64,000 bases of DNA from Mucilaginibacter tundrae (lineage in GTDB: Bacteria; Bacteroidota; Bacteroidia; Sphingobacteriales; Sphingobacteriaceae), in NCBI RefSeq assembly GCF_013408825.1, contig NZ_JACCBZ010000001.1, forward strand, positions 186,001 through 250,000, in the 5' to 3' direction. Below the pieces are notes generated by a model. The model was not told where the DNA came from. It saw nothing but the letters and a program-made list of their open reading frames with translations, and searched no databases. Numbering within the stretch: position 1 is the stretch's first letter; every line of letters starts with the position of its first letter. Made by a program: the position numbers and the translations under genes. Shown piece after piece: positions 31,677 through 49,600 of this stretch.

Positions 31677-32822
31677 TCAATTCGCCACACATCTAAACCC
31701 TAAATGTTCCAGGCTACTGTCTTCGGAACTTTTCATTCGCCGGGCAACTCTAAAGCCTGAACAATAGCTGTTATTACACAAAAATGATCCTCCCCGTATC
31801 ACCCGCTTCTTAGCATAAGGTTCATCCGGATCATAACTTTTAGCGGGGCCTTGCGGATCTTTTATACCCGGATTATTAGCTATGGTATTGTAGTAGTTAT
31901 TATCATAGTTATCGGCGCACCATTCCCACACATTGCCGGCCATGTCAAACAGCCCATAACCATTTGCAGGAAAAGAGGCTACCGGTGCAAGCCCATAAAA
32001 TTTATCGCGGAGTGTGTTTTGATCCGGGAAATGCCCTTCCCATGTATTTGCTTTAGGTTTGCCTTTATCAACTGGTTCATTTCCCCAGGGGTATATATTA
32101 TTTTGCAGGCCACCACGTGCAGCCCACTCCCATTCTGCTTCAGTAGGTAAACGTTTGCCTGCCCATTTGGAATAAGCGACTGCGTCATACCAGGAAATTT
32201 GCACAACCGGATAATTATCCTTTCCCTTAATGTTACTGCCTGGCCCTTGCGGATGTCGCCAGTTAGCTCCTTTTTTCCAAACCCACCATTGGCTGTAATC
32301 ATTTAAATCAACAGCATGTTTAGGTGGGTCAAAAACCAATGAAGCCGCAACCAACAAACTATCGGCAGGTTTTGGTGTTCCAGGTGGTAATTGCTTCTTC
32401 AGCTCGTTCCAATCCGGCTTTCGTTCAGCAGTGGTTATATAACCGGTTGCTTTCACAAATTTGGCAAACTGGGCGTTAGTAACCTCCGTAGCATCCATCC
32501 AAAAACCATCAACGGTAACTTTATGCTTGGGATATTCATCTGGTGCAGCCTGCTTATTATCTGCTCCCATCAAAAAAGTCCCCGCTTTTATCCAGATCAT
32601 TCCTTTATGGGAATTATCGTGGTTTAAATCAGGCACACCAATTTGATGCGCCCCCAACGATGCAAAACGCTTGGGGATACCTGATTCACAGCAGATAGCT
32701 TTCTTGCGCACACTAGGTGGTTGATTGGTTACACTAGTGGATTGCTGCTTTTGCTTACAGCCTGACCATATTAATCCGCTTAGCAAAAAGCTTAGTATTA
32801 AGGTTTTTTTAATCACCATCAT
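31677..32822 (-). CDS. Formylglycine-generating enzyme-family lipoprotein (sulfatase activator)
   Basis: A 381-residue protein with a lipoprotein signal (LSGLIWSGC) and a full FGE/SUMF1 domain. Its role is to oxidise the active-site Cys of sulfatases to formylglycine. It shows WIKAGTFLMGADN, GFWMDATEVTNAQFAKFV, RLPTEAEWEWAARGG and, near the end, RGGSFLCNNSYCSGFRVARR. The two Cys in that last motif match the redox and copper-binding pair of true FGE, so this is not merely a structural homologue. It lies 115 bp after the sulfatase gene on the same strand, its obvious client. The lipobox places it outside the cytosol, as expected for an oxygen-dependent enzyme. Confidence 0.88.
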   Translation of the reverse strand: MMVIKKTLILSFLLSGLIWSGCKQKQQSTSVTNQPPSVRKKAICCESGIPKRFASLGAHQIGVPDLNHDNSHKGMIWIKAGTFLMGADNKQAAPDEYPKHKVTVDGFWMDATEVTNAQFAKFVKATGYITTAERKPDWNELKKQLPPGTPKPADSLLVAASLVFDPPKHAVDLNDYSQWWVWKKGANWRHPQGPGSNIKGKDNYPVVQISWYDAVAYSKWAGKRLPTEAEWEWAARGGLQNNIYPWGNEPVDKGKPKANTWEGHFPDQNTLRDKFYGLAPVASFPANGYGLFDMAGNVWEWCADNYDNNYYNTIANNPGIKDPQGPAKSYDPDEPYAKKRVIRGGSFLCNNSYCSGFRVARRMKSSEDSSLEHLGFRCVAN

Positions 32823-34836: not shown

Positions 34837-34901
34837 TTTGTGTAAAGATTTATTATTAATGGGTTTCAAATTTTAATCGCCGGTATAGGCGATAGGTGCT
34901 T

Positions 34902-34981
34902 GTAAAACTTTGATAATCAGTGTTTGATTCGCAGTCGTTGCTGATCTATCGTGTAATCAACCGGCAAGGCTTCCTTGCCGG
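34902..34981 (-). promoter_or_regulatory. Conserved 80-nt leader RNA element upstream of the sulfatase (copy 1)
   Basis: Read leftward, this 80-nt segment aligns without gaps to 46511-46590 (reading right) with five differences. It begins with a perfect hairpin, CCGGCAAGG-AAG-CCTTGCCGG (34961-34981). It then forms a second stem with one bulged base (arms within 34911-34951) around a 20-nt loop that differs at one position, ending AAAGTTTTAC. One arm difference (C in copy 2, T here) turns a G-C pair into G-U and keeps the stem. It ends 65 nt before the sulfatase ATG. Role inferred: attenuator, antiterminator or translation control tied to the upstream leader peptide. Confidence 0.8.
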
Positions 34982-35118
34982 ATTGCTTTTTTGCTTGTTA
35001 TAACTTCATAAGTATAAATTAATTAGGGGTTTTAATATGTCGGCATAATGGTATAAGGATCACTTATACGTGGAGATAACAATTCGTTAAGGTCAGTGTG
35101 GAGGGGCGTGTTGTTTAA

Positions 35119-35193
35119 TTAACAACAACAGGTGCAGCAGTTATTGCTGGCAACGCGTGCAAAAGAAATGGGATGATGTAAAAAAGCTTTCAT
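35119..35193 (-). CDS. Cysteine-rich leader peptide upstream of the sulfatase operon
   Basis: A 24-codon ORF. The peptide starts MKAFLHHPISF and ends NNCCTCCC-stop, so five of its last six codons are Cys (TGC TGC ACC TGT TGT TGT). It starts about 11 nt after the expected transcription start. The same MKAFLH start and poly-Cys end occur upstream of susC at 46283. The codon run can fold with the sequence after the stop (TGTTGTT-AATTA-AACAACA). A ribosome slowed by lack of Cys-tRNA would block that pairing. This is the pattern of amino-acid attenuation leaders; poly-Cys leader ORFs with such a role are known in mycobacteria. Function here is inference. Confidence 0.8.
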   Translation of the reverse strand: MKAFLHHPISFARVASNNCCTCCC

Positions 35194-35211
35194 TGCGTTT
35201 GTTTTACGCAG

Positions 35212-35267
35212 CAAATATATAACTTCTTTTTATATTCTATAATATATATAGGAATTATAGAATATAA
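35212..35267 (-). promoter_or_regulatory. Leader promoter (-7 box) and perfect 14-bp dyad upstream of the sulfatase operon
   Basis: Read leftward, TATATTTG (35212-35219) matches the Bacteroidota -7 consensus TAnnTTTG. From it through the sixth leader codon the sequence is almost identical to the susC copy. Eleven bases upstream of the box lies a perfect 14-bp inverted repeat (arms 35230-35243 and 35254-35267, spacer 10 nt) with the half-site TAGAATATA. That half-site recurs at the same distance in the susC promoter. It is a good candidate operator for a sulfur regulator; the protein is not encoded nearby. Confidence 0.65.
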
Positions 35268-35309
35268 TCTTTTTTGTGTTTAGGATGATAAAATTCAGAT
35301 GTAAAAAAG

Positions 35310-35338
35310 AAAGAGCTCCTGACGGTCAGGAACTCTTT
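35310..35338. terminator. Intergenic hairpin between sulfatase promoter and SDR gene
   Basis: A 13-bp stem with one mismatch (arms 35310-35322 and 35326-35338, loop CGG). Reading leftward it is followed by TTTCTTTTTT, a good intrinsic terminator. It may shield the leader promoter from transcription entering from the right, although no leftward gene lies immediately there. Confidence 0.5.
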
Positions 35339-35500
35339 ACAACCAATTATAAACCTAGATGAGAAGACAATAATAAACTTTAGCTATTTATATAGTTTCA
35401 GCCGTTCTCATCCTTGAAATGTATAAGGGATCCATTGAAAGATATAAGTCGGGCAGTACCCTTTAACGGACTTTTGCTTTAGAAATTAAAATATAAAGCA

Positions 35501-36313
35501 ATGAAAAAGACAGTATTGATAACAGGTGCTTCGTCCGGCTTCGGAAAAGTAGCAGCTAAATTATTTCACACTAAAGATTGGAACGTAATTGCTAGTATGC
35601 GTTCGCCTGAAAAAGAAACAGAACTAAATAGCCTGGACAATATTTTTATTACCAGATTGGATGTGACCGATAAACAAAGCATACAAAATGCCGTGGCCGC
35701 AGGCATAGCTAAATTTGGCAAAATTGATGTATTGGTAAATAACGCGGGCTATGGCGCGTTGGGTGCATTGGAAGCAGCCACCGAAGAACAAATCAAACAA
35801 CAATTCGATGTTAACTTTTTTGGGTTGATAGCGGTAACAACGGCGGTATTGCCGGGTATGCGCCAACAAAAATCAGGTACTATTATTAATGTCTCGTCTG
35901 TTGGCGGGAGGGTTACTTTTCCGTTCTCGTCCCTTTATCATGCTACTAAATTCGCGGTAGAAGGTTTGACAGAATCCTTACAATATGAGTTAAACCCATT
36001 CGGCATCAACCTAAAAATAGTTGAACCCGGTGGTTATAAAACGGAATTTTCAGGCCGCTCAATGACGCTTTTACAAGCTGATGGCTTGGACGATTATAAA
36101 ACTTCGTTTGATAAATTTATCGGCATGTTGGATAATTGGCCAATGTCTGAGAATATTATGGAAGTAGCCGAGGCCATTTATGAAGCCGCTACGGACGGCA
36201 CTGAAAAGCTACGTTACCCTGTAGGACATGACGCTGCTCAATTAGTAGAAACCAGAAAGCAAATGACCGACGCTGATTTTAAGAAAATGATGGTTGCCCA
36301 GATGGACATTTAA
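35501..36313 (+). CDS. Short-chain dehydrogenase/reductase (SDR), copy 1
   Basis: A 270-residue classical SDR. The cofactor loop is TGASSGFGK, the NNAG motif is VNNAGYGALG, and the catalytic Ser and Tyr-Lys are in INVSSVGGRV and YHATKFAVEG. It likely uses NADP(H) and reduces or oxidises a small carbonyl compound in the cytosol; the substrate is unknown. An AraC-type regulator gene follows on the same strand beyond a terminator hairpin. The same SDR-AraC order occurs again at 58.3-56.5 kb on the other strand. Confidence 0.92.
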   Translation: MKKTVLITGASSGFGKVAAKLFHTKDWNVIASMRSPEKETELNSLDNIFITRLDVTDKQSIQNAVAAGIAKFGKIDVLVNNAGYGALGALEAATEEQIKQQFDVNFFGLIAVTTAVLPGMRQQKSGTIINVSSVGGRVTFPFSSLYHATKFAVEGLTESLQYELNPFGINLKIVEPGGYKTEFSGRSMTLLQADGLDDYKTSFDKFIGMLDNWPMSENIMEVAEAIYEAATDGTEKLRYPVGHDAAQLVETRKQMTDADFKKMMVAQMDI

Positions 36314-36318
36314 AAACC

Positions 36319-36352
36319 AATGGCTGCCAAAATTTGGGCAGCCATTAGTTTT
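36319..36352 (+). terminator. Intrinsic terminator after SDR copy 1
   Basis: A perfect 10-bp stem (AATGGCTGCC and GGCAGCCATT, arms 36319-36328 and 36337-36346) followed by AGTTTTATT. It lies in the 67 bp between the SDR and AraC genes, so read-through to the regulator is probably limited. Confidence 0.75.
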
Positions 36353-36380
36353 ATTGATAACTTTATAACAAAGGAAAAAC

Positions 36381-37283
36381 ATGCCGGATAAATATATCGA
36401 TCTTCAGTCTATCAGCGATTTGCATAAGCTGGTAAAATACGCGCCGCCAAAACATCCGCTAATAAGTGTGATAGACCATGCCGATTTTTATCGAAGGCGG
36501 CCTAAGGTAAATGCTTTATATCGCTTTGGCTTTTATACCATTTCCTGCAAAAAATTTGAGGGCTTGTTAAAGTATGGTAAGGGATATTATGATTTCAGCG
36601 AGGGCTCGTTGTTATTTACCGCGCCGGGACAAGTCATAGCGCCGGGGCCGGATGTTACGGTAGATGAGGGATGGGCGCTATTTATTCATCCCGATTTGAT
36701 ACATGGTACCGATTTGGGTAAAAAGATACATCAGTACTCCTTTTTCAATTATGAGGCCAACGAAGCTTTGCATATTTCGGAAGAGGAGAAAATCATTATT
36801 AAAGATTGCGTAACGAAGATTGAAAGGGAATATTCTCAGAATATCGACAAGCACTCACAAGGCCTCATAGTTAGCAATATTGAGCTGTTGCTTAATTACT
36901 GCAACCGCTTTTACGACCGGCAATTTTACACCCGGGCAAAAGTTAACCAGGATGTGGTGCAACAGTTTGAATCGTTATTAAAAGATTACTTTTCGCAAAG
37001 TACCCTGATCGAAACAGGTTTGCCAAATGTTAAGTATTTTGCTTCCCGGCTTAACCTTTCGCCTAATTATTTATCCGATCTTTTAAACAAGTTTACAGGC
37101 AAAACCACGCAGGAACATATTCACCTGGAGCTGATAGATAAAGCTAAATCATTGTTGTGGGGTACAAATAATTCTATCAGCGAGATTGCTTATGGGCTTG
37201 GATTTGAACACCCTTCGCACTTTACAAAAATATTTAAATCCAAAACGGGGAAATCACCTACTGAGTACAGGCATTTGAATTAA
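36381..37283 (+). CDS. AraC-family transcriptional regulator, copy 1
   Basis: A 300-residue regulator. The N-terminal part is a sensor of the cupin type, with a characteristic FSEGSLLFTAPGQVIAPG stretch. The C-terminal 100 residues hold the two helix-turn-helix units: VKYFASRLNLSPNYLSDLLN and ISEIAYGLGFEHPSHFTKIF, ending GKSPTEYR. It closely resembles the regulator at 56487-57374 in length and layout, for example DLHKL...PPKHPLISV here and ELHKF...PPEHPLISL there. It probably controls the SDR gene before it. Confidence 0.92.
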   Translation: MPDKYIDLQSISDLHKLVKYAPPKHPLISVIDHADFYRRRPKVNALYRFGFYTISCKKFEGLLKYGKGYYDFSEGSLLFTAPGQVIAPGPDVTVDEGWALFIHPDLIHGTDLGKKIHQYSFFNYEANEALHISEEEKIIIKDCVTKIEREYSQNIDKHSQGLIVSNIELLLNYCNRFYDRQFYTRAKVNQDVVQQFESLLKDYFSQSTLIETGLPNVKYFASRLNLSPNYLSDLLNKFTGKTTQEHIHLELIDKAKSLLWGTNNSISEIAYGLGFEHPSHFTKIFKSKTGKSPTEYRHLN

Positions 37284-37349
37284 TGGGTTTTAGTGTGGCA
37301 ATAACCAAATCGTAATACGTGCTACAGACGTGAACCAGGCCAGCAGAAA

Positions 37350-37553
37350 TTATTTGGTGCTTTTCATTTTACTTATCCATAGGTAGACAGACCATACACA
37401 TGTAATACCAAATACCACCAATATGGAAACATTGTAATGGTAAAAAAATGAATGGAAATAAGCCCCGACCAAAATGTAGGCAGAAGCGATACAAAGTTTT
37501 AATACGATAAGTTGAGCGTTTGACCAGCTGGTTTTTATTTTAAAAAAGTTCAT
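37350..37553 (-). CDS. Small two-helix membrane protein
   Basis: A 67-residue protein starting at ATG 37553 (MNFFKIKTSWSNAQL), which has an AAGG sequence just upstream. The longer reading from 37640 adds 29 residues with no support. Two hydrophobic stretches, VLKLCIASAYILVGAYF and VSILVVFGITCVWSVYLWI, form a hairpin in the membrane. I recall similar short proteins in Bacteroidota but no function. It stands alone, convergent with the AraC gene. Confidence 0.55.
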   Translation of the reverse strand: MNFFKIKTSWSNAQLIVLKLCIASAYILVGAYFHSFFYHYNVSILVVFGITCVWSVYLWISKMKSTK

Positions 37554-37800
37554 ATAGTTACCTTTTGTATAAATATCGACATAAATAGGTAAACGTTTAT
37601 TAATCATTATCACATATTTTTCCGGCTTTAAAAGCAACATAACGGGCTGGCTGGCATTGCCGTGGACAGTAAAGAAGTTGTTTATGATGCTGGTGCAGTA
37701 ATTACCTCATCTGAGAAATTGTCCCTAATTAATATTTCTTTTGGAGCCAACAGGGTTTTAAAATAAATCGTAATTTTATTTGATCACAAAACCTTTCAAC

Positions 37801-38643
37801 ATGAAAAAGAACCTATTGCTACTTTTTACGATAGCAGGTATGCTAATCAGCTATAATAGCTTTGGCCAGCTTACGCCTGCGCCTAGTTCGACGCAAACCA
37901 TTATACAGGATTTTGGCCTGGGTAAAATTACTTTAACCTATTCGCGGCCTAATGTAAAAGGCCGTAAGATATTTGGTTATACTGAACCTTACAACGCGGT
38001 ATGGCGTACCGGCGCGAACGCAGCCACCACCATCACTTTTACGGATGATGTAACGCTGGATGGGCATAAAGTTGCCGCGGGCACTTATGGCCTCTTTAGT
38101 ATTCCTGCTGAGAATGAGTGGACCATCATCCTGAGCAAAAACGCCAAACAGTGGGGCGCTTATGATTATAACGCTGCCGATGATTACCTGCGTTTTACGG
38201 TGAAGGCCATGAAAATTAACGAGTTGGTGGAAACCCTTACCATGCAATTCACCAATGTGTTCCCAACCAGTGCCGACCTTAACCTTTTATGGGAACATAC
38301 CGCGCTTGCCATACACCTGACAACCGATATTGATGCGAGGGTGATGGCCCGGATAGACTCGGCCATGCAAACCAACAAAAAACCTTATTATGACGCCATC
38401 ATCTATTACTGGAACAATAATAAGGATATGACTAAAGCCTTGCCATGGGCACAGGCCTTGCAAACTGCACCGGGTTTCCCACCGATGGTTGTTAAATTAT
38501 GGCTGGCAAGAACGGAATTGAGAGTTGGCGATAAGGCCGCCGCCATAAAGGCAGCGCAGGAAGGCATCGCAGCGGCGCAAACAGCTAAAAGTACTGAGTA
38601 TATTCGTTTGAATACTGAGGTTTTGGTGGACGCGAAGAAATGA
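37801..38643 (+). CDS. DUF2911-family exported protein
   Basis: A 280-residue protein starting at ATG 37801 with a clear signal peptide (MKKNLLLLFTIAGMLISY). An in-frame TTG at 37780 would spoil it. The body matches DUF2911, with LTPAPSSTQTIIQDFGLGKI near the start, RTGANAATTITFTDDVTLDG and WTIILSKNAKQWGAY; the C-terminal 100 residues look helical and TPR-like. The family is common in Bacteroidota and its function is unknown. It stands alone. Confidence 0.85.
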   Translation: MKKNLLLLFTIAGMLISYNSFGQLTPAPSSTQTIIQDFGLGKITLTYSRPNVKGRKIFGYTEPYNAVWRTGANAATTITFTDDVTLDGHKVAAGTYGLFSIPAENEWTIILSKNAKQWGAYDYNAADDYLRFTVKAMKINELVETLTMQFTNVFPTSADLNLLWEHTALAIHLTTDIDARVMARIDSAMQTNKKPYYDAIIYYWNNNKDMTKALPWAQALQTAPGFPPMVVKLWLARTELRVGDKAAAIKAAQEGIAAAQTAKSTEYIRLNTEVLVDAKK

Positions 38644-38759
38644 TGGTGAACCGCAGGGCTTCTGAAAGAAGCCACTGTGGAAACGGAAGAAAAAGTATTA
38701 CAATGATAGTACATGCGACAGTTGCACACTAGCATACGGAGCACATATGCGAATATGTT

Positions 38760-39188
38760 CTATTGCTTTCTGAAAATTCGTGACTTCACTAATACCTGAT
38801 CAAGATACTGTATGGTAAGGAAGCTGAAAATACCTAAGATAAGCGCCCACTTATATTTTAGTAAAACGCTGATGTATTCAGTCCCAGCAACTGGCTTTAT
38901 TACATTTAATAATAAGATGTATAACACACCTATGAAGAACGTTAAAACAATTATTCCTAATATATAAAATTTAAATTCGCTATTGCGCTTGTTATCAGTT
39001 AATATCTTGCGTGTCACTTTCGCGGAAAAATCATACGGCAACCCTTGCAATGGTTCAGTATCAAGAACATCATACAACGCTTGATAAGCTTTTGCATCAC
39101 GACCGGTTAATTCCTGTTTTCTTGATACTGACCCTGTTCGGTTTTCATCCATTAATTGTTGTAATTCCCTATCGTCTATCTTTTTCAT
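38760..39188 (-). CDS. Membrane protein coupled to the ECF sigma factor (possible anti-sigma)
   Basis: A 142-residue protein with a charged cytosolic N-terminal half (about 70 residues) and two membrane helices, FYILGIIVLTFFIGVLYILL and WALILGIFSFLTIQYL. Its start overlaps the sigma gene's end by four bases. That coupling and topology fit a membrane-bound anti-sigma factor. I see no zinc-binding HxxxCxxC motif of the ZAS type, so the role rests on context. Confidence 0.6.
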   Translation of the reverse strand: MKKIDDRELQQLMDENRTGSVSRKQELTGRDAKAYQALYDVLDTEPLQGLPYDFSAKVTRKILTDNKRNSEFKFYILGIIVLTFFIGVLYILLLNVIKPVAGTEYISVLLKYKWALILGIFSFLTIQYLDQVLVKSRIFRKQ

Positions 39189-39742
39189 TTCATATCGTTT
39201 TGAAGGTATACCTCAACTTTTTCCTTGAGCAATTTACGCGCCCTAAAAAGGTAGTTCTTTATTGTTCCCTCGGGCATACCGGTTATCTCCCCTATCTCAT
39301 CGCATGAAAATTCATTCAGATGATACAAGGTAAGCACTATTTTATATTTTTCGGGCAATTGGGCTATAAGTGCCTCCACATAATAAGCCACTTCTTTTTT
39401 TGTCAATAAAACTTCGGGGTTATCATTCGTAAAATGATAATTCTCTAAATCATCAGGGTAATCGCCGATTTGGTTTTTCCTGTGTTTTTTAAGATAATTT
39501 ACAGCGGTAAAATAAGTAATCTGCGCTATCCAGGTAGATAATTTAGATTGAAAATTAAACCTGAATAAACTTTTATGAACCTTTATAAAAACCTCCTGGC
39601 AAATATCCTCGATATCTACCTGTTCATTAACAAGGCGGCTTATTACATAAAATACAAGGCGTTCATATTGTTTTACCAAAAGTTCAAAAGCGCGCATATC
39701 GCCCTTTAAAACTTTGGTTACAATCTCCCTTTCGTTAAACAT
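39185..39742 (-). CDS. ECF-type RNA polymerase sigma factor
   Basis: A 185-residue group IV sigma-70 factor. Region 2 covers FELLVKQYERLVFYVISRL through DIEDICQEVFIKVHKSLFRF and the -10-recognition stretch TWIAQITYFTAVNYLKKHRK. Region 4 is YKIVLTLYHLNEFSCDEIGE with MPEGTIKNYLFRARKLLK. It is followed by an overlapping membrane gene likely to restrain it. The rightward receptor operon opposite may be a target, but I saw no shared promoter to show it. Confidence 0.93.
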   Translation of the reverse strand: MFNEREIVTKVLKGDMRAFELLVKQYERLVFYVISRLVNEQVDIEDICQEVFIKVHKSLFRFNFQSKLSTWIAQITYFTAVNYLKKHRKNQIGDYPDDLENYHFTNDNPEVLLTKKEVAYYVEALIAQLPEKYKIVLTLYHLNEFSCDEIGEITGMPEGTIKNYLFRARKLLKEKVEVYLQNDMK

Positions 39743-39857
39743 ATGCTATTAGTCAGCGCTTTGGTTATAAAGGTTGCAAAAAATAAAAAAATAATAATTG
39801 CAACCAATCACCATTAACAATTGACTACTATATAAAAATCATCTAAATTTAAATATT

Positions 39858-40199
39858 ATGGATCAGCACATCGCATTTTTTATAGCAGTTATTGCAGTAG
39901 TTGTAGTTATAGCACAGGTTATCATAGCATGGTACAATTATCGCTTAAAGAAACGTATTATAGATTCAGGCCCGGTAAATACCGACGCTATTGGTTTTGT
40001 TAAGAGCCTATCAGGTACGGGCAGCGATTCGCTTAAATGGGGTTGTGTTATTTTCTCAGGCGGCCTTGGATTAGTGATCATCAACTTTATATCCTATGGC
40101 TATAATTCCTCTCTACCTTACGGGCTGGAAGCTATGTTTATTGCAGGCGGCTTTTTAGTGTATTATGCAATTATCCGCAAACAACAATCCTTAAAATAA
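39858..40199 (+). CDS. Small membrane protein of unknown function
   Basis: A 113-residue protein with an N-terminal membrane helix (AFFIAVIAVVVVIAQVIIAW), a basic stretch (YRLKKRI) and two more helices in the C-terminal half (GCVIFSGGLGLVIINFI and AMFIAGGFLVYYAII). It lies between the divergent sigma gene and the receptor gene. I recognise no family. Confidence 0.6.
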   Translation: MDQHIAFFIAVIAVVVVIAQVIIAWYNYRLKKRIIDSGPVNTDAIGFVKSLSGTGSDSLKWGCVIFSGGLGLVIINFISYGYNSSLPYGLEAMFIAGGFLVYYAIIRKQQSLK

Positions 40200-40295
40200 T
40201 CGCCCGGCTCGGCTAATCCTCAAAATTTATTAACTCTTTTTTAAAGCATTACAGGCTTAAGGGAACGCTATTGCCTAAAATCAATCTTTCCTATC

Positions 40296-42746
40296 ATGAA
40301 AAAAACGATCACCTACATGGCTATCTGCTTATTGACAACTTTTTTGTGTTATAGCGATGGCTTTGCCCAGCAAATATTACTAACCCAAAAGATATACGGA
40401 ACAGTTAAGGACTCATTAACACATGAAACATTGGGACTGATAACCATCAAACTAAAAACAGAGAAAGACAGCCTGCTAAAAACAACCATAAGTAAAACCG
40501 ACGGCAGGTTCAGCTTTGAAAATATAGAAGTTTTAAAATACCATCTCGTATTAATTTCAATAGGTTACGAAGCAAAAGTTGTTGTGATAAACCTTACTGA
40601 TGATAAAACCACACAAGATATTGGTGTAATTTATTTAAGCAAGCGATCTCAAAACTTAAACGAGGTGGTTGTAAAGAGCGACAGGCCTATCATTAAGCAA
40701 AAGGCTGACCGCATAGTTTATGATTTGCAGGCCGACCCGGAAAGTAAGGTGAATAATGTTTTAGGCATGATCCATAAAATTCCATATTTATCTGTAGATG
40801 CTAACAACACAGTTCTGATGAAAGGCAATTCCAGCTTTAAGGTGCTTATCAATGGTAAGCCATCGGGCATGCTCACTAACAATTTGACAGAAGTGTTACG
40901 CAGTATGCCTGCTTCATCCGTGTTGCGCATAGAAGTGATCACTATACCGCCAGCAAAATATGATGCTGAAGGAATGGCGGGTATTATAAATATTATTACC
41001 GACCGTAAAATTAATGATGGTTATAAAGGCACCCTGAATGCGAACGAGGGCTTTCCGCCGGGCCAGGATATTGGCGGCTCCTTTACTGCTCAACAAGGAA
41101 AATTTGGGATAAATAGTTATGGTGGGCTAAGTTCATATAACAGCCCGCAAGCCAATTATTCCAACAAAAGGGTAACTACTGATACCGATGCTACTGTATT
41201 AAATCAAGCCGGGCACAACCAGTCGGACAGCAAAAATGGGTACATTGGTGTTGAGTTAAGTTACCAAATAGATACCTTAAACTTGCTATCGGGCAATATT
41301 AACGTCAACGGTAACCGGTATAATGGCTCAAGCACACAAACATCAATATTAACCAACAGTGCTGGATTATTGCAAGGCTATGACCTGGATAACACCAATA
41401 ACGGGAACAGGAGTGGAATTGATGCTGCTATAAATTACCAGCTGGGTTTTAGGTCAATGAAAAACACCTTGCTTACCTTTTCCTATGAATATTCTTATTT
41501 CAGGAGTAATGCATACAATGACGAGGTTATTAACGATCCCTTTAACTTCACAACACCTGATTATATGCAAACGGACAAGGAACAATCTAACGAACATACT
41601 ATCCAAGTTGATTATACGCACCCTATTGGTAAAGTAAATATGGAAACTGGTGTTAAGGCGATCTTACGAAATAGCAACAGCAATTCCGGCTATAACAGTA
41701 TTGATTCAGCCAGTAACTTGTTTGAATCGGTGCCAGCCTTTGGCAATGTATTTCGTTATATACAGGATGTGTTCGGTATTTATAACTCCTATCAGTTCAG
41801 CCTCAAAAAATGGAACTTTAGCGCAGGCTTGCGAGCCGAAGAAACTTACGTGGATGCCAGCTTTGTTTCTACAGGGACAAATACTATTCAAAATTATTTT
41901 AACGTTGTACCGTCGATTGCCATTAATAAATCATTTGATGATAACAGCAGTTTAAGTTTCGGCTTTGCTCAGCGCATCCGCAGGCCCAGTATTTACAGGT
42001 TGAACCCGTTTGTTAACCGTTCCGATCCAGACTTTATAAGTAGTGGCAACCCGAACCTGCAACCTGTAGTAATGAATAATCTTCAGTTGGGATACAGTAG
42101 CGGCGGAGGCAAAAAGGTGTCTGTATTTTTGGGTGCGGATGAAACATTCTTCAATAACTTAGAGTTGCCGGTCACCAATGTTAACCCGGTTTCGCAGGTT
42201 ACCACAACAACCTATCAAAATGCCGGTAAGGGCGGCGGGGCCGGACTTAACTTTAATGTTAATTACTCGCCAGCGAAAGTATATAACCTCAGCATAAATG
42301 GAGATATTATGCAGTACTTCATAAAAGGAACCGGAGATATCGCAACAGATAAAATGGACATGCTGGCCGGGCATGTTTCCCTTTCAAACAGTTTTAAATT
42401 TAATGAAGGATGGAGCAGCAATCTTAACTTCGATTTTTATAGCAAACAACCCAGATCGATCCAAGTAACGGCTAACGCATTTGCAACCTCGTCATTAAGC
42501 GTAAATAAGGAATTGATCAAAAACAAACTATTTTTATCCGCTGCGGTAAATAACCCGTTCACCAAATTCCGCAATAGCATTACAGAAACAACCGGCGATG
42601 ATTTTATACAAACCAACGATAACCAGGTTTATTTCAGATCGTTCAGATGTAGCATTAATTACAATTTTGGCAGGTTGAAGAGTGATATCAAAAAGAACAG
42701 GAAAGGCATAAACAATGATGATGTTTCAAACGGTGGTGAATTGTAA
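40296..42746 (+). CDS. Outer-membrane receptor, TonB-dependent-receptor-like, with carboxypeptidase-regulatory-like domain
   Basis: An 816-residue protein. After a signal peptide (ending DGFAQ) comes a carboxypeptidase-regulatory-like Ig-fold domain (about residues 32-110), then a plug-like region (VLGMIHKIPYLSVDANNTVL, PAKYDAEGMAGIINIIT) and a C-terminal barrel typical of the outer-membrane-protein beta-barrel family 3. No SusD partner follows, so it is not a SusC. Substrates of this type are usually unknown; some take up peptides or siderophore-like compounds. Confidence 0.85.
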   Translation: MKKTITYMAICLLTTFLCYSDGFAQQILLTQKIYGTVKDSLTHETLGLITIKLKTEKDSLLKTTISKTDGRFSFENIEVLKYHLVLISIGYEAKVVVINLTDDKTTQDIGVIYLSKRSQNLNEVVVKSDRPIIKQKADRIVYDLQADPESKVNNVLGMIHKIPYLSVDANNTVLMKGNSSFKVLINGKPSGMLTNNLTEVLRSMPASSVLRIEVITIPPAKYDAEGMAGIINIITDRKINDGYKGTLNANEGFPPGQDIGGSFTAQQGKFGINSYGGLSSYNSPQANYSNKRVTTDTDATVLNQAGHNQSDSKNGYIGVELSYQIDTLNLLSGNINVNGNRYNGSSTQTSILTNSAGLLQGYDLDNTNNGNRSGIDAAINYQLGFRSMKNTLLTFSYEYSYFRSNAYNDEVINDPFNFTTPDYMQTDKEQSNEHTIQVDYTHPIGKVNMETGVKAILRNSNSNSGYNSIDSASNLFESVPAFGNVFRYIQDVFGIYNSYQFSLKKWNFSAGLRAEETYVDASFVSTGTNTIQNYFNVVPSIAINKSFDDNSSLSFGFAQRIRRPSIYRLNPFVNRSDPDFISSGNPNLQPVVMNNLQLGYSSGGGKKVSVFLGADETFFNNLELPVTNVNPVSQVTTTTYQNAGKGGGAGLNFNVNYSPAKVYNLSINGDIMQYFIKGTGDIATDKMDMLAGHVSLSNSFKFNEGWSSNLNFDFYSKQPRSIQVTANAFATSSLSVNKELIKNKLFLSAAVNNPFTKFRNSITETTGDDFIQTNDNQVYFRSFRCSINYNFGRLKSDIKKNRKGINNDDVSNGGEL

Positions 42747-43080
42747 TGTTGTTGCATCCCTGGTTCAAGAATGGTTGTATAGATATTAGTTTAACGCATT
42801 TAAAACCTATGCTTTTATCATATTCAACCGTTTCAATCTGTGCCAAAACGCAATCTAAAGGCTATAAAAATCTGCATTTTTCCATCAAAAATTGGCAAAA
42901 AACGGACAAAAAACGTCATTTTTTAAGTATTTTTAGGCGTAAAATGGGTATTTTTTAGTTAAAAATCGCCTTAATATCAATGTAAAAACCGTCTTTTTAG
43001 GGTTATTTCGAGCGTTTTTGGGGCGAAATTGTACCAAATGTACCAAACTGTTTCACTTGTTCCGTGGTACAGTACAAGCC
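42747..43080. other. Gene-free AT-rich region
   Basis: This 334-bp stretch between convergent genes has many A and T runs and no convincing ORF. A 70-codon open frame at 42746 has unlikely composition and no family resemblance. I saw no RNA gene or mobile element. Confidence 0.45.
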
Positions 43081-43533
43081 TTAGCCTGTTGTTTCCTGCA
43101 CCTCTTGCTCAACCGCGAATTGCCCGTTACCCTCTATCAGGAAGCCGATGATTGCCAGCAACACTATTATGGATAACCATATTTCGGAGTAGGGTTTTAA
43201 AACGCTTTGTTTCAGGTCGACCAAAAACACGGCCCCCAACAAAACAGGCAGGTTAAGCAAACAGAACAAGCGGGTGCGCAAACCTAAAGCAATACAAACC
43301 CCACCGATGAGATGCAGCGCGATAATCAAATCGGCTAATACTGAAATACTTACCGAAGCACTTATGCTATCTGTTAAACCGGTATCGTGCAGAAAATCGG
43401 CCAGCACATTTAAGTTTAATATAAACGCGATGCCTTTCCAAACCAGTGCCAGGCCAAGTGCGATCCTGAAAAACACCAGCCATTTGGGGTTATGATGATC
43501 ACCCCAAAACATTATTTTTTCGAGTGTAGTCAT
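43081..43533 (-). CDS. DoxX-family membrane protein
   Basis: A 150-residue protein with four hydrophobic segments and the DoxX-like pattern WLVFFRIALGLALVWKG near the start and LIIALHLIGGVCIALGLRTR in the middle. DoxX proteins are small quinone- or redox-related membrane proteins whose exact role varies. It follows the deacetylase gene on the same strand after 69 bp. Confidence 0.8.
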   Translation of the reverse strand: MTTLEKIMFWGDHHNPKWLVFFRIALGLALVWKGIAFILNLNVLADFLHDTGLTDSISASVSISVLADLIIALHLIGGVCIALGLRTRLFCLLNLPVLLGAVFLVDLKQSVLKPYSEIWLSIIVLLAIIGFLIEGNGQFAVEQEVQETTG

Positions 43534-43602
43534 GGTATTATAATTGGTATAATACTAAGTTAAGCATTTTATATTTTTATTATTAACCAATAATAAAAAT
43601 AT

Positions 43603-44418
43603 TTATTTCGCTTTGTTTGAGGCTGTTGCCTGATGGCTTTTTATATATGACGCCACCTGCACCATAGGTGCTATCCATATATTCTTTTTGTTTTGTGCCA
43701 AATAGTGCAGCAGCTCGCTATGGGCATTAAGAGAAACATTTATGGTATGCCCACCACCTACGCCATGAAAAAGAAAAACAAGCAATGTATGGGTTTGCAT
43801 GGCTTGTTTCACCAGATCGATCATATACTCGGCAGATTGACCGTTGATGCCATAGCATTCAATATTCATCAGGTTTACCTCATCTATAGTTTGCAACCCC
43901 GGCATTACCCCACGGGCACCGGCAAATTCTTTTACCAGTTGATCATAAAAATACTGTCCGCCGATAGTCAGATCGCCGCATGGGTAAGCAAAGGTTCTGA
44001 CATCCTTACCATCAATAGCCTTTAGCAGTGTATTATTTACCCTGATCTCGTTTACGGCACGGGTGACAGTGTATTTGCTCAGGTCATTATCCGCTGTTAC
44101 AAACCCACGCCCCGGCAAACTGCCATCGCATGGGTGAAAGAGGGAATGATTACCTAATTCGTGGCCATGCATTGCCGCTTTCCGCCATTCATTAACTCTT
44201 AAATTTACCACCGGTGATGAGCCTATCAGGTAAAATGTCGCTTTTAAACCCAACGAGTCAAGTGCTGGGATAACATTGTCTAAATCAACATTAATCGCGT
44301 CATCATAGGTTAGTACAACCGCGCATTGTTTGCCATTCCATGTATTATCGGTTTGTGCCATTGTTATTTGCGTCGCGAACAGCATGGCCAATAGCATTAC
44401 ATATTTTATTAGTTTCAT
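43603..44418 (-). CDS. Exported polysaccharide deacetylase-like protein (NodB homology)
   Basis: A 271-residue protein with a signal peptide (ending AMAQ). NodB-type motifs are visible: motif 1 as LTYDDAINVDLD (Asp pair), motif 2 as HGHELGNHSLFH (metal His pair), motif 3 around RTFAYPCGD, and the late HGVGGGH. Such enzymes remove acetyl groups from carbohydrates. It lies 28 bp after the GH51 gene and on the same strand, so it may deacetylate arabinose-containing hemicellulose or pectin side chains. Confidence 0.87.
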   Translation of the reverse strand: MKLIKYVMLLAMLFATQITMAQTDNTWNGKQCAVVLTYDDAINVDLDNVIPALDSLGLKATFYLIGSSPVVNLRVNEWRKAAMHGHELGNHSLFHPCDGSLPGRGFVTADNDLSKYTVTRAVNEIRVNNTLLKAIDGKDVRTFAYPCGDLTIGGQYFYDQLVKEFAGARGVMPGLQTIDEVNLMNIECYGINGQSAEYMIDLVKQAMQTHTLLVFLFHGVGGGHTINVSLNAHSELLHYLAQNKKNIWIAPMVQVASYIKSHQATASNKAK

Positions 44419-44446
44419 TAGTTATATAATTGTTTAGTTACAGCCT

Positions 44447-45994
44447 TTAATTCAACGTGAGTACCACCACTGACGCACCCGGCATATTCACATCCAGATC
44501 TTCCCCTTTTAAAATCGCCCCGTTAAAGGTTTCCGCCTTTATTTTTTCGGGATTATCGAAGGAATTATAATCCTGCACTTTGGCTGAGGCCAATATCCTC
44601 CCGGTAACGGCAGCAAACTTTTTGCCATTAAGGTTAAGCTTTACTTTATGCACATGGTCGGGATCAATATTCACAAGCGATATGTGCACTACGCCATTTT
44701 TATCTTTTGAAGCGGATACTGAAACCGCCGATAATTTTTCGTCGCCTAACACATAATCATCGCTGTTAATGATTATTGGTAACAAGGTGGCATCCTGGTG
44801 CACATTGTACATCTCCATTACGTAATAGGTTGGTGTAAGTATTAATTTGTTGCCACTAGTGAGGATAACCGCTTGCAGTACATTAATACATTGTGCAAGA
44901 TTGGCCATGCGCACACGGTCGCAATGATTATTGAATATATTTAGGGTTACACCCGCGATCATGGCATCGCGCATAGTGTTTTGCTGGAACAAGAAGCCGG
45001 GATTAGTACCACGCTCCACATCGTACCAACCACCCCATTCGTCTACCACCAAGCCGATCTTCTTCTTCGGATCATACTTATCCATAATGCGGGAGTGTTT
45101 GGTGATCAGCGTATCCATAAATAGGGCACGTTTCATGGTGGTAAAATATTGCTGCTCGTTAAATTTGGTTGCCGAACTTTTGTGATCCCAATCAATAACC
45201 GAATAATAATGCAACGCGATCCCCTCAATCAGGTTTGGTGGGATCTGTTTCATAAGGGTTTCCGTCCAATTATAATCGTCAGAATTCGCTCCGGACGCGA
45301 TCCGGTAAATTTTGGTGGTATTATCGGAGCCTGACATAAAGGTGGAATATTTCCTAAATTCATTCGCATAATAATCAGGCGCCATATTACCACCGCAGCC
45401 CCAGGCTTCGTTACCTATACCCCAAAATTTTACATTCCACGGCTTATCACGCCCATTGACACGGCGCAGGTCAGACATCGGATTTTTATTGTCAGAACTT
45501 ACGTAAGAAACCCAGTCGGACAGTTCCTGCACAGTACCGCTGCCTACATTACCGGAGATGTAAGGATCGGCGCCCAGCAGTTCGCACATATTTAAAAATT
45601 CGTTGGTGCCAAAGCTATTGTCTTCAACAATACCTCCCCACCAGCGATTTACGATGGATGGCCTTTTATCTTTAGGGCCGATGCCGTCCTTCCAATGATA
45701 AGTGTCGGCAAAACAACCACCGGGCCATCTGAGAGCTGGGATTTTCATTTTTTTTAATGCGGCGATCACATCATTCCTAACGCCGTGGGTGTTGGGGATT
45801 TTTGAGGTGTCGCCAACATAAAAGCCATCATATATACCCCTGCCTAAATGTTCGGCAAAATGACTATAGATATATTTACTTATTTTAACTGACCCTGAAT
45901 CGACAGGGAAGCTAACATTAACATTTGTTTGGGCCTGTAAGTTAATACAGGAAAATATCATCAATAGTGATAACAGGTATAATTTTGGTTTCAT
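44447..45994 (-). CDS. Exported alpha-L-arabinofuranosidase-like enzyme (GH51)
   Basis: A 515-residue glycoside hydrolase from ATG 45994 (MKPKLYLLSLLMIFSCINLQ, a signal peptide); a TTG at 46012 is less likely. GH51 landmarks are ALRWPGGCFADTYHWKDGIG, the acid/base Glu in FWGIGNEAWGCGG, and the nucleophile Glu in LVVDEWGGWYD. It should release L-arabinofuranosyl residues from plant polysaccharides. It leads a three-gene leftward group with the deacetylase and DoxX genes. Its promoter faces away from the susC leader in the next 270 bp. Confidence 0.92.
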   Translation of the reverse strand: MKPKLYLLSLLMIFSCINLQAQTNVNVSFPVDSGSVKISKYIYSHFAEHLGRGIYDGFYVGDTSKIPNTHGVRNDVIAALKKMKIPALRWPGGCFADTYHWKDGIGPKDKRPSIVNRWWGGIVEDNSFGTNEFLNMCELLGADPYISGNVGSGTVQELSDWVSYVSSDNKNPMSDLRRVNGRDKPWNVKFWGIGNEAWGCGGNMAPDYYANEFRKYSTFMSGSDNTTKIYRIASGANSDDYNWTETLMKQIPPNLIEGIALHYYSVIDWDHKSSATKFNEQQYFTTMKRALFMDTLITKHSRIMDKYDPKKKIGLVVDEWGGWYDVERGTNPGFLFQQNTMRDAMIAGVTLNIFNNHCDRVRMANLAQCINVLQAVILTSGNKLILTPTYYVMEMYNVHQDATLLPIIINSDDYVLGDEKLSAVSVSASKDKNGVVHISLVNIDPDHVHKVKLNLNGKKFAAVTGRILASAKVQDYNSFDNPEKIKAETFNGAILKGEDLDVNMPGASVVVLTLN

Positions 45995-46012
45995 ATTACA
46001 ATTGGCTTGCAA

Positions 46013-46222
46013 CGTAAAAGTATAAATTATAATTGTAGGTAAAACAATTATAAGAATGGATTATTTATCGTTAAGATCAAACAGATATAAGCAACTATTT
46101 ATAAGCTTGGGATGAAAACAATATTAAAACGTAATTATAGCTATGTAAATTAAATACTTTTTTGCCTTTAATACTCAAATTAATTCTGGATTTTAACTCT
46201 AAATATTAGATACACTATAAAA
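46013..46222. other. AT-rich divergent region between GH51 and the susC leader
   Basis: About 210 bp, very AT-rich, expected to contain the leftward GH51 promoter. Apart from the left half of a short inverted repeat paired with the susC promoter (46199-46206), I could not identify specific sites in it. Confidence 0.35.
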
Positions 46223-46264
46223 TCTACATATTTAGTAGAATATATAAATTATTTTATATCTTTG
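46223..46264 (+). promoter_or_regulatory. Leader promoter (-7 box) and upstream half-site of the susC operon
   Basis: TATCTTTG at 46257-46264 matches the Bacteroidota -7 box. From TTTG through the sixth leader codon, 39 of 40 bases equal the sulfatase copy. TAGAATATA at 46236-46244, 12 nt upstream of the box, equals the half-site of the 14-bp dyad at the sulfatase promoter. A short dyad TCTAC-N7-GTAGA covers it, and CTAAATAT/ATATTTAG repeats lie at 46199 and 46228. Shared regulation of both operons is likely. Confidence 0.6.
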
Positions 46265-46282
46265 CTGCGTAGAACAAACGCA

Positions 46283-46375
46283 ATGAAAGCTTTTTTACAT
46301 TTCAACACAAATATATTAACCGCTTTAGGTGCCACCCCGGCACAGCGAATGTGTTGTGCTTGTTGTTGTTGCTAA
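46283..46375 (+). CDS. Cysteine-rich leader peptide upstream of susC
   Basis: A 30-codon ORF. It starts MKAFLHFNTN and ends QRMCCACCCC-stop, so six of the last seven codons are Cys (TGT TGT GCT TGT TGT TGT TGC). The first six residues and the preceding 5' region match the sulfatase leader almost exactly, while the middle differs in length and sequence. Conservation of the start and of the Cys run only is what selection on ribosome stalling at Cys codons would leave. The spacing from the stop to the conserved 80-nt element is 135 nt here and 137 nt in the other copy. Coding function as a sensor is inference. Confidence 0.8.
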   Translation: MKAFLHFNTNILTALGATPAQRMCCACCCC

Positions 46376-46510
46376 ACTACAATCGACCTCAAAATTTATT
46401 GATTGTTACATGAGCAAAATCTGCTTCGGCAGTGCCATGTCCGGTCTGTATCCCCTCAATTTAATTAAAACTACTACGATGGCTCTTTAAAATCTACCTA
46501 TAAAAACAAA

Positions 46511-46590
46511 CCGGCAAGGAAGCCTTGCCGGTTAATTACATGATGGATCAGCAACGACTGCGAATCACACACTGATCATCAAAGTTTTAC
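46511..46590 (+). promoter_or_regulatory. Conserved 80-nt leader RNA element upstream of susC (copy 2)
   Basis: The second copy of the 80-nt element, 75 of 80 positions equal to 34902-34981 read leftward. Hairpin 1 is CCGGCAAGG-AAG-CCTTGCCGG at 46511-46531. Hairpin 2 pairs 46541-46551 (one bulged G at 46545) with 46572-46581 around a 20-nt loop that carries GCAACGACTGCGAATC. It ends 37 nt before the susC ATG. No T-run follows hairpin 1 in this direction, so it is not a textbook intrinsic terminator for the sense transcript. Confidence 0.8.
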
Positions 46591-46627
46591 GAACGAATTG
46601 AATCATTAACATAAAACATTTAAATAT

Positions 46628-49600
46628 ATGGAAATATATATCCATGCAAAACACATACTAAATAAGTTTTCAAAAGTCCTCTTATTTCTGATTATACCCT
46701 TCTCGGCCTTCGCGCAGCAAAAAGATGTTGCCGTTATTAACTCGCGGATAGAGGGTACGGTTATCGACAGTGCTACTAAACAACCCATCGCCGGCGTTAC
46801 CCTGCGCATAAAAAATGTAACGCACGAGGTTACTACCGGCTCTAACGGCCACTTTATTTTTATTACCGGTCAGAAACTTCCTTATACGTTGGTAGTAAGC
46901 TTTATTGGCTACAAAACCAAAGAAGTTGTTGCCAACGGTAGCCCGGTTAACATACAACTTGCCGAAAACATTGCCCAACTGAATGATGTAGTTATAGTAG
47001 GTTACGGCACCCAGAAAAAAAGCGACTTGACCGGCGCCATTGGAGCAGTGCCAAAGAACCTGTTAAGTCAACCTGTTGTTTCTGTCGATAATTTATTGCA
47101 GGGCGCTGTATCAGGGGTTGCAGTTACACAAAATTCGGGCCAGCCGGGTAGTACCGCTACCATCAGGGTTCGAGGTGGTAATTCCATCTCGTTTGGTAAT
47201 GCCCCGCTTTACGTAATAGATGGGTTTATTATTTATAACGATAATGATTACACCAATGTTGGCTCAAATGGTACCAGCGTAAACGCTTTGGCCACCATCA
47301 ACCCAAGCGATATTGAATCCATCGAAGTACTCAAAGATGCATCGGCAACCGCAATTTACGGCTCGCATGGTGCAAATGGCGTGGTTATCATCACCACTAA
47401 AAAAGGAAAAAAAGGCACCAACAATGTAAACTTTAGCAGTTACATCGGCGACCAAACAATAGCCAAAAAACTTGATCTGTTAAATGCCTCACAATGGGGA
47501 TCATTAGTAAATGATATTAATGTAAGTGATGGCGTCGCTCAAACTTACACTTCTTCACAGTTGGCCGCTTTGGGTACAGGCTCAAATTGGCAAAATGCTG
47601 TGCTTAGAAATGCCCCTGAATATAATGGGGAATTATCTATATCTGGCGGTGACGAAAAATCCCGTTATCTGATATCAGGCAATTACTTCGACCAGGAGGG
47701 TACCATTTTAAATACAGGCTTTAAAAGGTATTCGGCAAGGGTTAATTATGAAAAAAATGTAACCGATAAGTTTAAGATCTCTACTAACGTATTCGGTAGC
47801 CAGTCGATCGAAAATAAATTGGTGGGTAGTGCTTACGATAGTAACCAATTTAGCAATGCATTTGCAACCTTACTATTAACCTCGCCGGCATCGCCAATAA
47901 CAAATGCAAATGGCAGCTATTATACCAACAGCCCTTACATCGCCACACCGACTAACCCAGTACAGGACATAACCGCGACAACTAATACTACTACATTGAC
48001 CCGTGTATTAGGAAACGTTGCGGGTGAATATAAATTTATCCCTGATTTGACTTTAAAGGTTACTGCCGGGGTTGATATTATAAACACTGTTCAGGATTAT
48101 TACGCGCCGTCGAACACTTCAGGCGGATATGCTGATCAGGGCTTTGCACAAATAGGCAATGGAAACGAATTAAGCTGGTTGAACGAAAATACGCTTACCT
48201 ACGACCATGCTTTTAACAATACCAACTTTTTAAACATACTGGCTGGTTATACTACCCAGTACACTCGTTTTTCATCATCAACAGCATCTGCACAAAAATT
48301 TCCGAATGATCTAACCTCTTACAATAATCTTTCTTATGCCGGCGTAGCTAACTTGCCTACATCAAGTTTTGCCAGCCAGGCTTTGGATTCTTATTTGGCA
48401 AGGGTTAATTACTCTTACCTGCACATTTATAATTTAACTGTATCTGCCCGTGCGGATGGTTCATCAAAATTAGGCGCAAATAATAAATGGGGATACTTTC
48501 CATCGGCAGGCTTCTCATGGAATATCGATAAGGAGGATTTCTTTAAATCATTACAGCAGGACATCAGCAGTTTAAAGCTGAGATTAAGCGCAGGCCAAAC
48601 CGGCAACTCGGAAGTGCCTCCATATAGTTCACTGGCAGCATTAGCACCAACTAATTATTACTTTGGCAGTAAGCTAGTTACCGGTATCGCGCCTGTTCAA
48701 ATAGATAACCCTAACCTGAAATGGGAAACTACCACACAATATGATGGTGGCTTTGATCTGGGCTTATTTAATAGCCGGGTAAACTTAACGTTTGACGCTT
48801 ATTATAAAAAGACGACTGATCTTTTATTGAATGTTCCTCTTCCATTATACTCCGGCTATGCCAGCGAATTAGAAAACGTAGGTAGCGTATCAAATAAAGG
48901 TATTGAGTTAGGTATTAATACCGATAACATTAAAACCGACCATTTTTCGTGGAAAACGAATATAGAATTTGCTAAAAACGATAATAAAGTATTAAGCTTA
49001 GGGCCGGGCGTTACCAGTTACTTCCCTACAGCTCCTACCGGTTATGTTTCACCGGTTATAGTAGCTGTAGGTGCACCGGTTGGTACTTTCTGGGGATATA
49101 CAACACAGGGCTTATTAACTGCCGCCGATATTGCTAAGGGTGTGCCGTTGTTAGCTGGCGTACCTCAAAAAGTAGGTGATACCAAATATGTTGACTACAA
49201 CCACGATGGTCAAATAACAACTGCTGATAAACATAATCTGGGCAGCGCTCAGCCTAAATTTACCGGTAGTATCACCAATACATTTACTTATGGGCAATTT
49301 GACTTATCAGTATTCTTCAACGGGTCATATGGCAACAAGATATTTAACCAGCTACAACAGGTTCTAGAGCGCCCTACACTTACGCAAAATGCTTCGGCCA
49401 CTTTGTTAAACAGGTGGAGCCCTACCAACCCAACCGGTACAGTGGCACGTGCTACCGACTCGCCGGTACCGCAAGTAACCGATCGTTATGTGGAGAATGG
49501 ATCGTATTTAAAGCTTAAAAACGCATCATTAGGCTATACGTTCACTAACGGCCTGGCATCTAAAATTGGCGCTAAGCAATTAAGGGTATATGTATCTGGT

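Follow-up and report, generated by a model that had tools for sequence, protein, structure and literature searches.

What is the role of two very short open reading frames (ORFs) that end in runs of cysteine codons, one ahead of a sulfatase operon and the other ahead of a SusC/SusD operon, in Mucilaginibacter tundrae? Both lie in a 64,000-nucleotide (nt) stretch of its genome (contig NZ_JACCBZ010000001.1, positions 186,001 to 250,000), which is called the window here. They are probably cysteine-sensing leader peptides that would raise the expression of the genes downstream when charged tRNA-Cys is scarce, and this reading is likely because a run of Cys codons stands at the end of the ORF and because the genes behind it are, by annotation, mostly genes for scavenging sulfur. 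Relatives in the Mucilaginibacter-Pedobacter group, which are soil bacteria, have such ORFs as well. An earlier note on this DNA had suggested cysteine-responsive leaders, and the suggestion appears to be well supported when sequences of relatives are compared.

Leader ORF A (35119..35193, minus strand) has 24 codons and reads MKAFLHHPISFARVASNNCCTCCC-stop, and leader ORF B (46283..46375, plus strand) has 30 codons and reads MKAFLHFNTNILTALGATPAQRMCCACCCC-stop; both are present where the earlier note had placed them. From the TTTG of the -7 box through codon six the two are identical by eye at 39 of 40 positions and their middles are unlike, which repeats what had been seen before. Poly-Cys ORFs of this kind are more than chance would give: the window has two intergenic ones, plus one inside a longer ORF, and in 400 kb of other DNA from the same genome no intergenic one was found, all 11 matches there being within longer ORFs. 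Leader A is 83 and 87% identical to the leaders of loci L040 and L095, and the A-B pair is absent from the listed leader pairs that are at least 72% identical. A is thus nearer to the leaders of L040 and L095 than to B, and the two window leaders seem to be old paralogues. When the regions upstream of the two operons were aligned, a second conserved block was found 135-137 nt past each leader stop, at 46510-46581 for B and 34911-34981 for A. This block contains two stems, H1 and H2, and a micro-ORF lies ahead of it.

The relatives compared below were collected through this second block and not through the leader. With the block as query, no part of the leader being included, 25 of the 100 genomes searched gave matches, all in the same genus, and with 130 bases around leader B as query 10 of 100 genomes matched. 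A search for the H1 pattern in a named genome collection gave 47 stretches from Mucilaginibacter, Pedobacter, and metagenome-assembled genomes of Sphingobacteriaceae/Bacteroidetes. Altogether 78 loci were pooled (29 from the genome searches, L058 and L059, and the 47 stretches), from which 76 segments were cut and 59 loci remained after removal of duplicates; the 59 are mutually related and are not 59 independent events. Three loci outside this set have the leader as well: L080 and L103, with less than 300 nt upstream, the leader of L080 ending in PCCL, and L031, where it ends in VCCCRR.

In all 59 of these hairpin-selected loci an ORF of 12 or more codons begins with ATG and has two neighbouring Cys among its last eight residues, compared to 31 of 1180 dinucleotide shuffles, and at least three Cys near the end were found in 57 loci compared to 7 of the 1180 shuffles. 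The terminal residue is Cys in 40 of the 59 leaders, and TGT is used 191 times and TGC 72 times. With the run fixed in place, all 59 loci can be read back to an ATG in the Cys frame, but only 5 and 9 of them in the two alternative frames; when the 110 nt upstream were shuffled the Cys frame was open in 320 of 2950 cases. The leaders come in 15 different lengths. Thus, the retention of the Cys run in homologues, on which the earlier idea depended, is seen in frame at each of these 59 hairpin loci. That note had also taken the whole pattern as a sign of selection. The two starts, however, owe their near-identity mostly to common ancestry, and the upstream alignments show that a near-identical leader start is common to close relatives.

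A covariance model of the hairpin block, R1, matched 44 of 301 genomes of the family, in 6 of 25 genera. In the genome of the window, with E up to 10, it recovered loci A and B, faint opposite-strand echoes of these, and one other weak match. Among 30 R1 loci that were retrieved, many of which had already been counted, 28 have a leader ending in CC, L240 is down to one Cys and L252 has no leader. Of 18 more divergent matches, a script finds a leader ending in CC at 11; inspection by eye shows an ORF ending C-M-C at L267 and, at L257, Cys codons in the micro-ORF itself. No Cys leader was found at L260, L262, L265 and L266, and the match at L258 looks false, resembling an ordinary terminator.

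The genes behind the homologous leaders were compared in 31 neighbourhoods, which remained from 36 after dropping L077, a duplicate of locus A, and the short L054, L060, L070 and L072; neighbourhood genes were clustered by BLAST and families were scanned on representatives only. A sulfatase, formylglycine-generating enzyme (FGE) or sulfite-oxidation gene is present in 21 of the 31, mostly behind SusCD, so that the expected sulfur genes do follow the leader at most loci. Sulfatase and/or FGE clusters account for 11 neighbourhoods, and a second operon type, also in 11, has SusC, SusD, often a cyanophycinase-like S51 protein, and two proteins without a Pfam or NCBIfam family, usually together with a YeiH-type exporter, a cytochrome c and a SoxC-type sulfite dehydrogenase. 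At L063, which is of the second type, only the first genes are visible, hence the count of 21. The tandem proteins of L055 (6925-8364 and 8389-10008), which sit in operons with YeiH and SoxC-type genes, matched neither a Pfam nor an NCBIfam family above threshold, and a PDB search (E up to 1) gave no relative. Outside the sulfur group and a group with FA_hydroxylase, which is taken up below, the tally is 3 of 31. L049 has genes for a thioredoxin-like protein, an MFS protein, a cysteine-dioxygenase-like protein (below cut-off) and a rhodanese, and at L059 the genes are for a TonB receptor and an SDF symporter.

In the window, leader A precedes a sulfatase gene (32938..34836, minus strand; the start is the ATG after leader A, the ORF list having a TTG start at 34869), a gene for an FGE family protein of sulfatase maturation (31677..32822, minus) and one for a DUF4202 protein (31037..31633, minus), and leader B precedes genes for a SusC/RagA TonB-linked receptor (46628..49744, plus), SusD (49767..51251, plus) and an FA_hydroxylase family protein (51627..52562, plus), whose homologues elsewhere stand behind poly-Cys leaders without SusCD. 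Apart from the sulfatase start, these assignments are from the family scan, and they agree with the two operons described earlier. Only 1 of the 28 SusC genes above cut-off in this genome has a poly-Cys leader; a second one with a Cys-rich ORF upstream (L282) was rejected since that ORF is out of frame inside susC.

Poly-Cys ORFs are also found without the hairpins, and what stands behind several of them is a tRNA-Cys gene. In the window's own genome one lies 45 nt ahead of an accessory tRNA-Cys gene (L129), and at L125 (the same locus as L067), L051 and L202 it lies a few hundred nt ahead of such a gene. At L126 and L127 the leader is followed by a beta-carbonic-anhydrase-like gene and then by two tRNA-Cys genes; COS/CS2 hydrolases are among the PDB relatives of this protein, but plain carbonic anhydrases score higher, and it is at most a candidate for such a hydrolase. 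By script, 4 of 30 tRNA-Cys loci have a leader and 26 have none. Other poly-Cys ORFs precede FA_hydroxylase genes (L005, L014, L314, L320, L322), a TonB receptor gene adjoining sulfate-assimilation genes (L190, L192, L193, L196), an S10-peptidase-like gene (L323), and a PhyH-like gene with tRNA-Cys, MetNIQ-like and CysM-like genes further downstream (L201). In another family of the class a seven-Cys leader (L155, reverse complement 1246-1320) precedes cysH and is followed by a 9-bp hairpin without a T-run. Gene names in this hairpin-less group that come without a family scan were read from the sequence. Eight further loci have a tRNA-Cys gene embedded in the sulfur operon, between the susD or S51 gene and the next gene (L047:7100-7171, L053:5933-6004, L055:6903-6974, L056:6979-7051, L061:6091-6162, L062:6107-6178, and on the minus strand L069:8371-8442 and L073:9048-9119). 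In these embedded copies, and in the SAM-riboswitch-linked ones of L330 and L333, positions 1 and 72 are apparently unpaired (A.G) by eye, with A.A in L335, and the housekeeping tRNA-Cys differs in having no such mismatch by eye.

The leaders share a promoter motif. The -7 boxes, of the TAnnTTTG type that is the consensus in Bacteroidota, are TATCTTTG at 46257..46264 (plus strand) for promoter B, the ATG at 46283 being 19 nt past its end, and TATATTTG at 35212..35219 (minus strand) for promoter A. Over the -33 region of promoter B lies an operator-like motif, CTACATATTTAGTAG (46224..46238, plus), which appears in alignments as a conserved CTA..TTT..TAG block; its counterpart at promoter A (35237..35251, minus) was recovered as L315 by a model, R2, for which it had not been a training sequence. 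R2 is a sequence-only model of 43 rows that stops short of the Cys codons. On six genomes it produced 102 matches (E up to 0.5), and 30 loci were retrieved from them. Six of the 30 either had served for training or, as with L310, are a near-identical sister of one that had, and L331 is L325 seen from the opposite strand. The remaining 23 comprise nine poly-Cys leaders (L313-L315, L319, L320, L322-L325, new among them L314, L320, L322 and L323), eight S-adenosylmethionine (SAM) riboswitches (RF00162) and six loci with neither. The riboswitches are on the same strand at L317, L318, L321, L328, L330 and L333 and on the facing strand at L329 and L335, and in three cases (L330:1577-1807, L333:1563-1806, L335:1602-1840) the riboswitch lies about 50 nt ahead of a tRNA-Cys gene. 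The SAM riboswitch is thus like the poly-Cys leader in standing behind the same promoter motif and, at three loci, beside tRNA-Cys, but unlike it in being a direct metabolite sensor without a leader peptide. As for what binds the motif, an Rrf2 regulator is our guess: L202 has an Rrf2-type regulator gene adjoining CysM-like and tRNA-Cys genes, and CymR (E 7e-13) is among the PDB relatives of its product, another Rrf2 protein being the best.

The hairpin block itself is best read as belonging to the opposite strand. H1 is a 10-bp hairpin, ACCGGCAAGG-AAG-CCTTGCCGGT, at 46510..46532, which on the minus strand has a T-rich, terminator-like tail, and H2 at 46541..46581 is a covarying stem with a conserved loop that forms better on the minus strand. 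Rfam gave no match in the window at the gathering score and only sub-threshold ones within 46150-46660 (E 2.2-8.4). In an alignment of 54 sequences 10 pairs changed on both sides, nine of them in H2, with 70 such cells compared to 15 in shuffles, and the covariation score was 0.190 compared to 0.073 when shuffled and at most 0.080 in slid versions. Stem mismatches were A.C, that is G.U on the minus strand, in 43 cells and G.U on the plus strand in 9; consensus folding gave -29.1 for the minus and -13.5 for the plus strand; at least six T in the 10 nt past H1 were found in 55 of 59 loci on the minus strand and in 2 of 59 on the plus strand; and 23 of 58 loci, where 2.3 are expected, have the promoter pattern TTG-N17-21-TAnnTTT across the susC start on the minus strand. 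Because of this strand bias, folding, T-rich tail and promoter pattern we predict from the sequence an antisense RNA of about 115 nt facing susC (46500..46614, minus strand), with its 3' end at H1 and its start placed by TTG-N18-TATATTTA at 46649-46621; a sense-strand riboswitch or terminator was dropped after the strand test. This element and the shared promoter motif had been overlooked in the earlier note, whose picture they extend. At locus A the copies of H1 (34961..34981) and H2 (34911..34951) read as antisense on the plus strand and are kept, but susC and the adjoining antisense promoter pattern are gone, as if this leader had lost its susCD genes.

The micro-ORF (ATG, one to five further codons, stop) is present in 59 of 59 loci compared to 154 of 1180 shuffles, and the one nearest H1 begins 24-39 nt before it. 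In 10 loci it reads M-C-stop; in the window it is ATG GCT CTT TAA (M-A-L-stop) for B (46479..46490, plus) and ATG AAG TTA TAA (M-K-L-stop) for A (34998..35009, minus). L260 and L266, where the SusC is of the STN type by eye, have H1/H2 and the micro-ORF and no Cys leader, which means that the hairpins are not tied to cysteine; judged by sequence, the combination of micro-ORF and antisense RNA may belong to susC genes more generally. At L265 an H1/H2-like block was seen ahead of an Rrf2-type regulator gene.

Several observations weigh against the cysteine-sensing interpretation. Two of the 59 loci have only two Cys in the last nine residues, some Pedobacter homologues are down to two, and L240, which has a Pedobacter-type SusC start, keeps a single one; loss of the Cys run in homologues was among the results that the earlier note had named as speaking against its idea. 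Substitutions in leader pairs are spread over codon positions 1, 2 and 3 as 115, 119 and 152, a codon-level signal that is uninformative, as are the Cys-codon changes (5 synonymous, 11 not) and the gaps, in which multiples of three are not favoured; a further indel-type test was set aside since its outcome is a consequence of ORF lengths and has no evidential value. The figure of 21 of 31 neighbourhoods was counted at leader loci only, and in 7 of the 31 FA_hydroxylase, for which we know of no role in sulfur metabolism, is the sole shared partner. Within the genus a poly-Cys ORF on the strand of the gene and no more than 1.5 kb away is missing from all 23 PF01507 (cysH/cysD) loci (L158-L165, L167-L177, L179-L182), the scripted matches at L173 and L174 being on the opposite strand only, and cysH/cysD was rejected as a target of the leader there. 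The leader stop is 79-157 nt from H1 across the 59 loci, too distant for acting on H1 by contact, and for both A and B the complete upstream RNA is more stably folded than its shuffles (z -5.6 and -3.4), which means that structure in single loci may exist.

How would the leader act? Under a shortage of charged tRNA-Cys, ribosomes would halt at the Cys codons and expression of the genes behind would rise. In a classical attenuator the position of the ribosome on these codons would select a terminator or an antiterminator hairpin of the leader RNA. This is suggested by single loci: leader B has two terminator-like hairpins on its strand at its end, its Cys run can pair with an arm of H2, and in six loci of the genus g53, where the Pedobacter leader of L120 (L226) is found too, an AAGGCTA..TAGCCTT hairpin with a T-run lies by eye between leader and micro-ORF (L253, L254, L256, L268, and imperfectly L255 and L269). 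Across loci, however, the Cys run shows no conserved pairing with the 40 nt that follow (mean 4.95 compared to 4.44 expected), its native duplexes with H1 and H2 beat mismatched ones at just 24 and 25 of 59 loci, and the spacers between leader and micro-ORF are unstructured as a set (mean z -0.6; 5 of 59 below -2). An antiterminator in which the Cys run pairs in a conserved way with H1, H2 or the stretch past the stop was rejected, and the classical scheme is unlikely. We consider it somewhat unlikely, too, that control is by translational attenuation, in which stalling or reinitiation via the micro-ORF opens the downstream start site as in mycobacterial poly-Cys leaders, a case that is termed translation attenuation in passages of PMC13236596. 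The micro-ORF does occur at every locus, in the deeper relatives L259, L261, L263 and L264 it is the Cys ORF that stops 15-42 nt ahead of H1, and in L257 M-C-C-C-N-stop stands by eye at the micro-ORF position. Such control is impossible, though, where tRNA genes follow the leader, and micro-ORFs precede H1 at SusC genes that lack a Cys leader (L260, L266, by eye).

Since the leader is also found before tRNA genes, which are not translated, its effect is most simply one on transcription. Stalling that prevents termination, with Rho as the candidate factor, is therefore what we prefer, because the pairing tests failed, the spacers are C-rich (C 21.7% and G 13.6%, compared to 16.4 and 15.4% in 106 control 5' regions), and the tRNA targets exclude a purely translational effect at those loci; the gene for Rho is present. 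Once a ribosome has passed the Cys codons and come off, the C-rich and weakly structured spacer beyond the leader (for B 46376..46478, plus strand, a possible termination zone with a fold z of -1.7 alone) would lie open to termination, whereas a stalled one would shield the entry site of the termination factor. In one Pedobacter group a terminator-like hairpin may take the place of Rho-type termination. At SusC operons the antisense RNA would be a second layer: reaching from the start of susC to H1, beside the micro-ORF, it would repress leaky susC mRNA. A third layer may be the operator-like promoter motif, possibly for a CymR-like Rrf2 regulator. It is very unlikely that antisense RNA and operator alone control these genes, with the Cys ORF a passenger or a small Cys-rich peptide with some other job: antisense element and promoter motif are strongly conserved, but the frame and the Cys codons are kept whereas the middle of the peptide is not, and leaders recur without H1/H2 before tRNA, beta-carbonic anhydrase, FA_hydroxylase, TonB and cysH genes.

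Taken more broadly, it is possible, though we would stop short of calling it probable, that Sphingobacteriaceae have a cysteine-starvation regulon in which one class of promoter feeds either a poly-Cys leader or a SAM riboswitch as exchangeable sensors, accessory tRNA-Cys genes are included behind either sensor or embedded in a sulfur operon, and an antisense RNA is a second lock on SusC operons. If this is true, translation of Cys codons governs the supply of the tRNA that reads those codons, and a leader peptide ahead of tRNA genes is an unusual control of that supply. It would also bring cysteine-counting leader peptides to a second phylum, link SusCD operons to hunger for sulfur and not for carbon, and make the leader a mark of unknown sulfur genes such as those for the family-less tandem proteins and FA_hydroxylase. 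Elsewhere in the window, ARAGORN reported a tRNA-Thr (tgt) at 28185-28260, opposite to a transketolase-like gene (27676-28506), which is possibly false.

Regulatory codons in a leader ORF are known from trp/his-type attenuators and from Rho control of the tnaC type in E. coli. The leaders described here share such codons with the trp/his type but not its mutually exclusive hairpins, which are not conserved; the geometry of tnaC is similar, with the Cys codons here at the end of the ORF followed by a spacer, and Rho would play a corresponding part. For Flavobacterium, passages of PMC9723704 give clues for leader-peptide attenuation at amino-acid operons and do not name cysteine. In open-licence literature we found no poly-Cys leader peptide in Bacteroidota, in keeping with the earlier note, which named mycobacteria as the precedent and knew of no case in this phylum, and no pairing of a SAM riboswitch with tRNA-Cys. 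The predicted antisense RNA resembles DonS of Bacteroides, described in passages of PMC7366714 as a family of cis-antisense RNAs of 78-128 nt that are divergent to susC homologues and lower them: it also faces susC, is structured, ends in a terminator-like hairpin and falls within that size range, the likeness being one of position, size and strand, and it differs in being from Sphingobacteriaceae, in being seen in sequence only, and in being paired with a Cys leader. The closest parallel is that of mycobacteria, where leaderless poly-cysteine short ORFs (Canestrari et al. 2020, as cited in passages of PMC9094748 and PMC13236596) lie upstream of genes proposed to be cysteine-responsive. Both have a short Cys-codon ORF ahead of genes for which a response to cysteine supply is proposed; what differs is that here, in another phylum, there is probably a short 5' leader before the ATG, that a spacer and a micro-ORF follow the leader and SusC operons have an antisense element, and that the targets are SusCD scavenging operons and tRNA-Cys genes.

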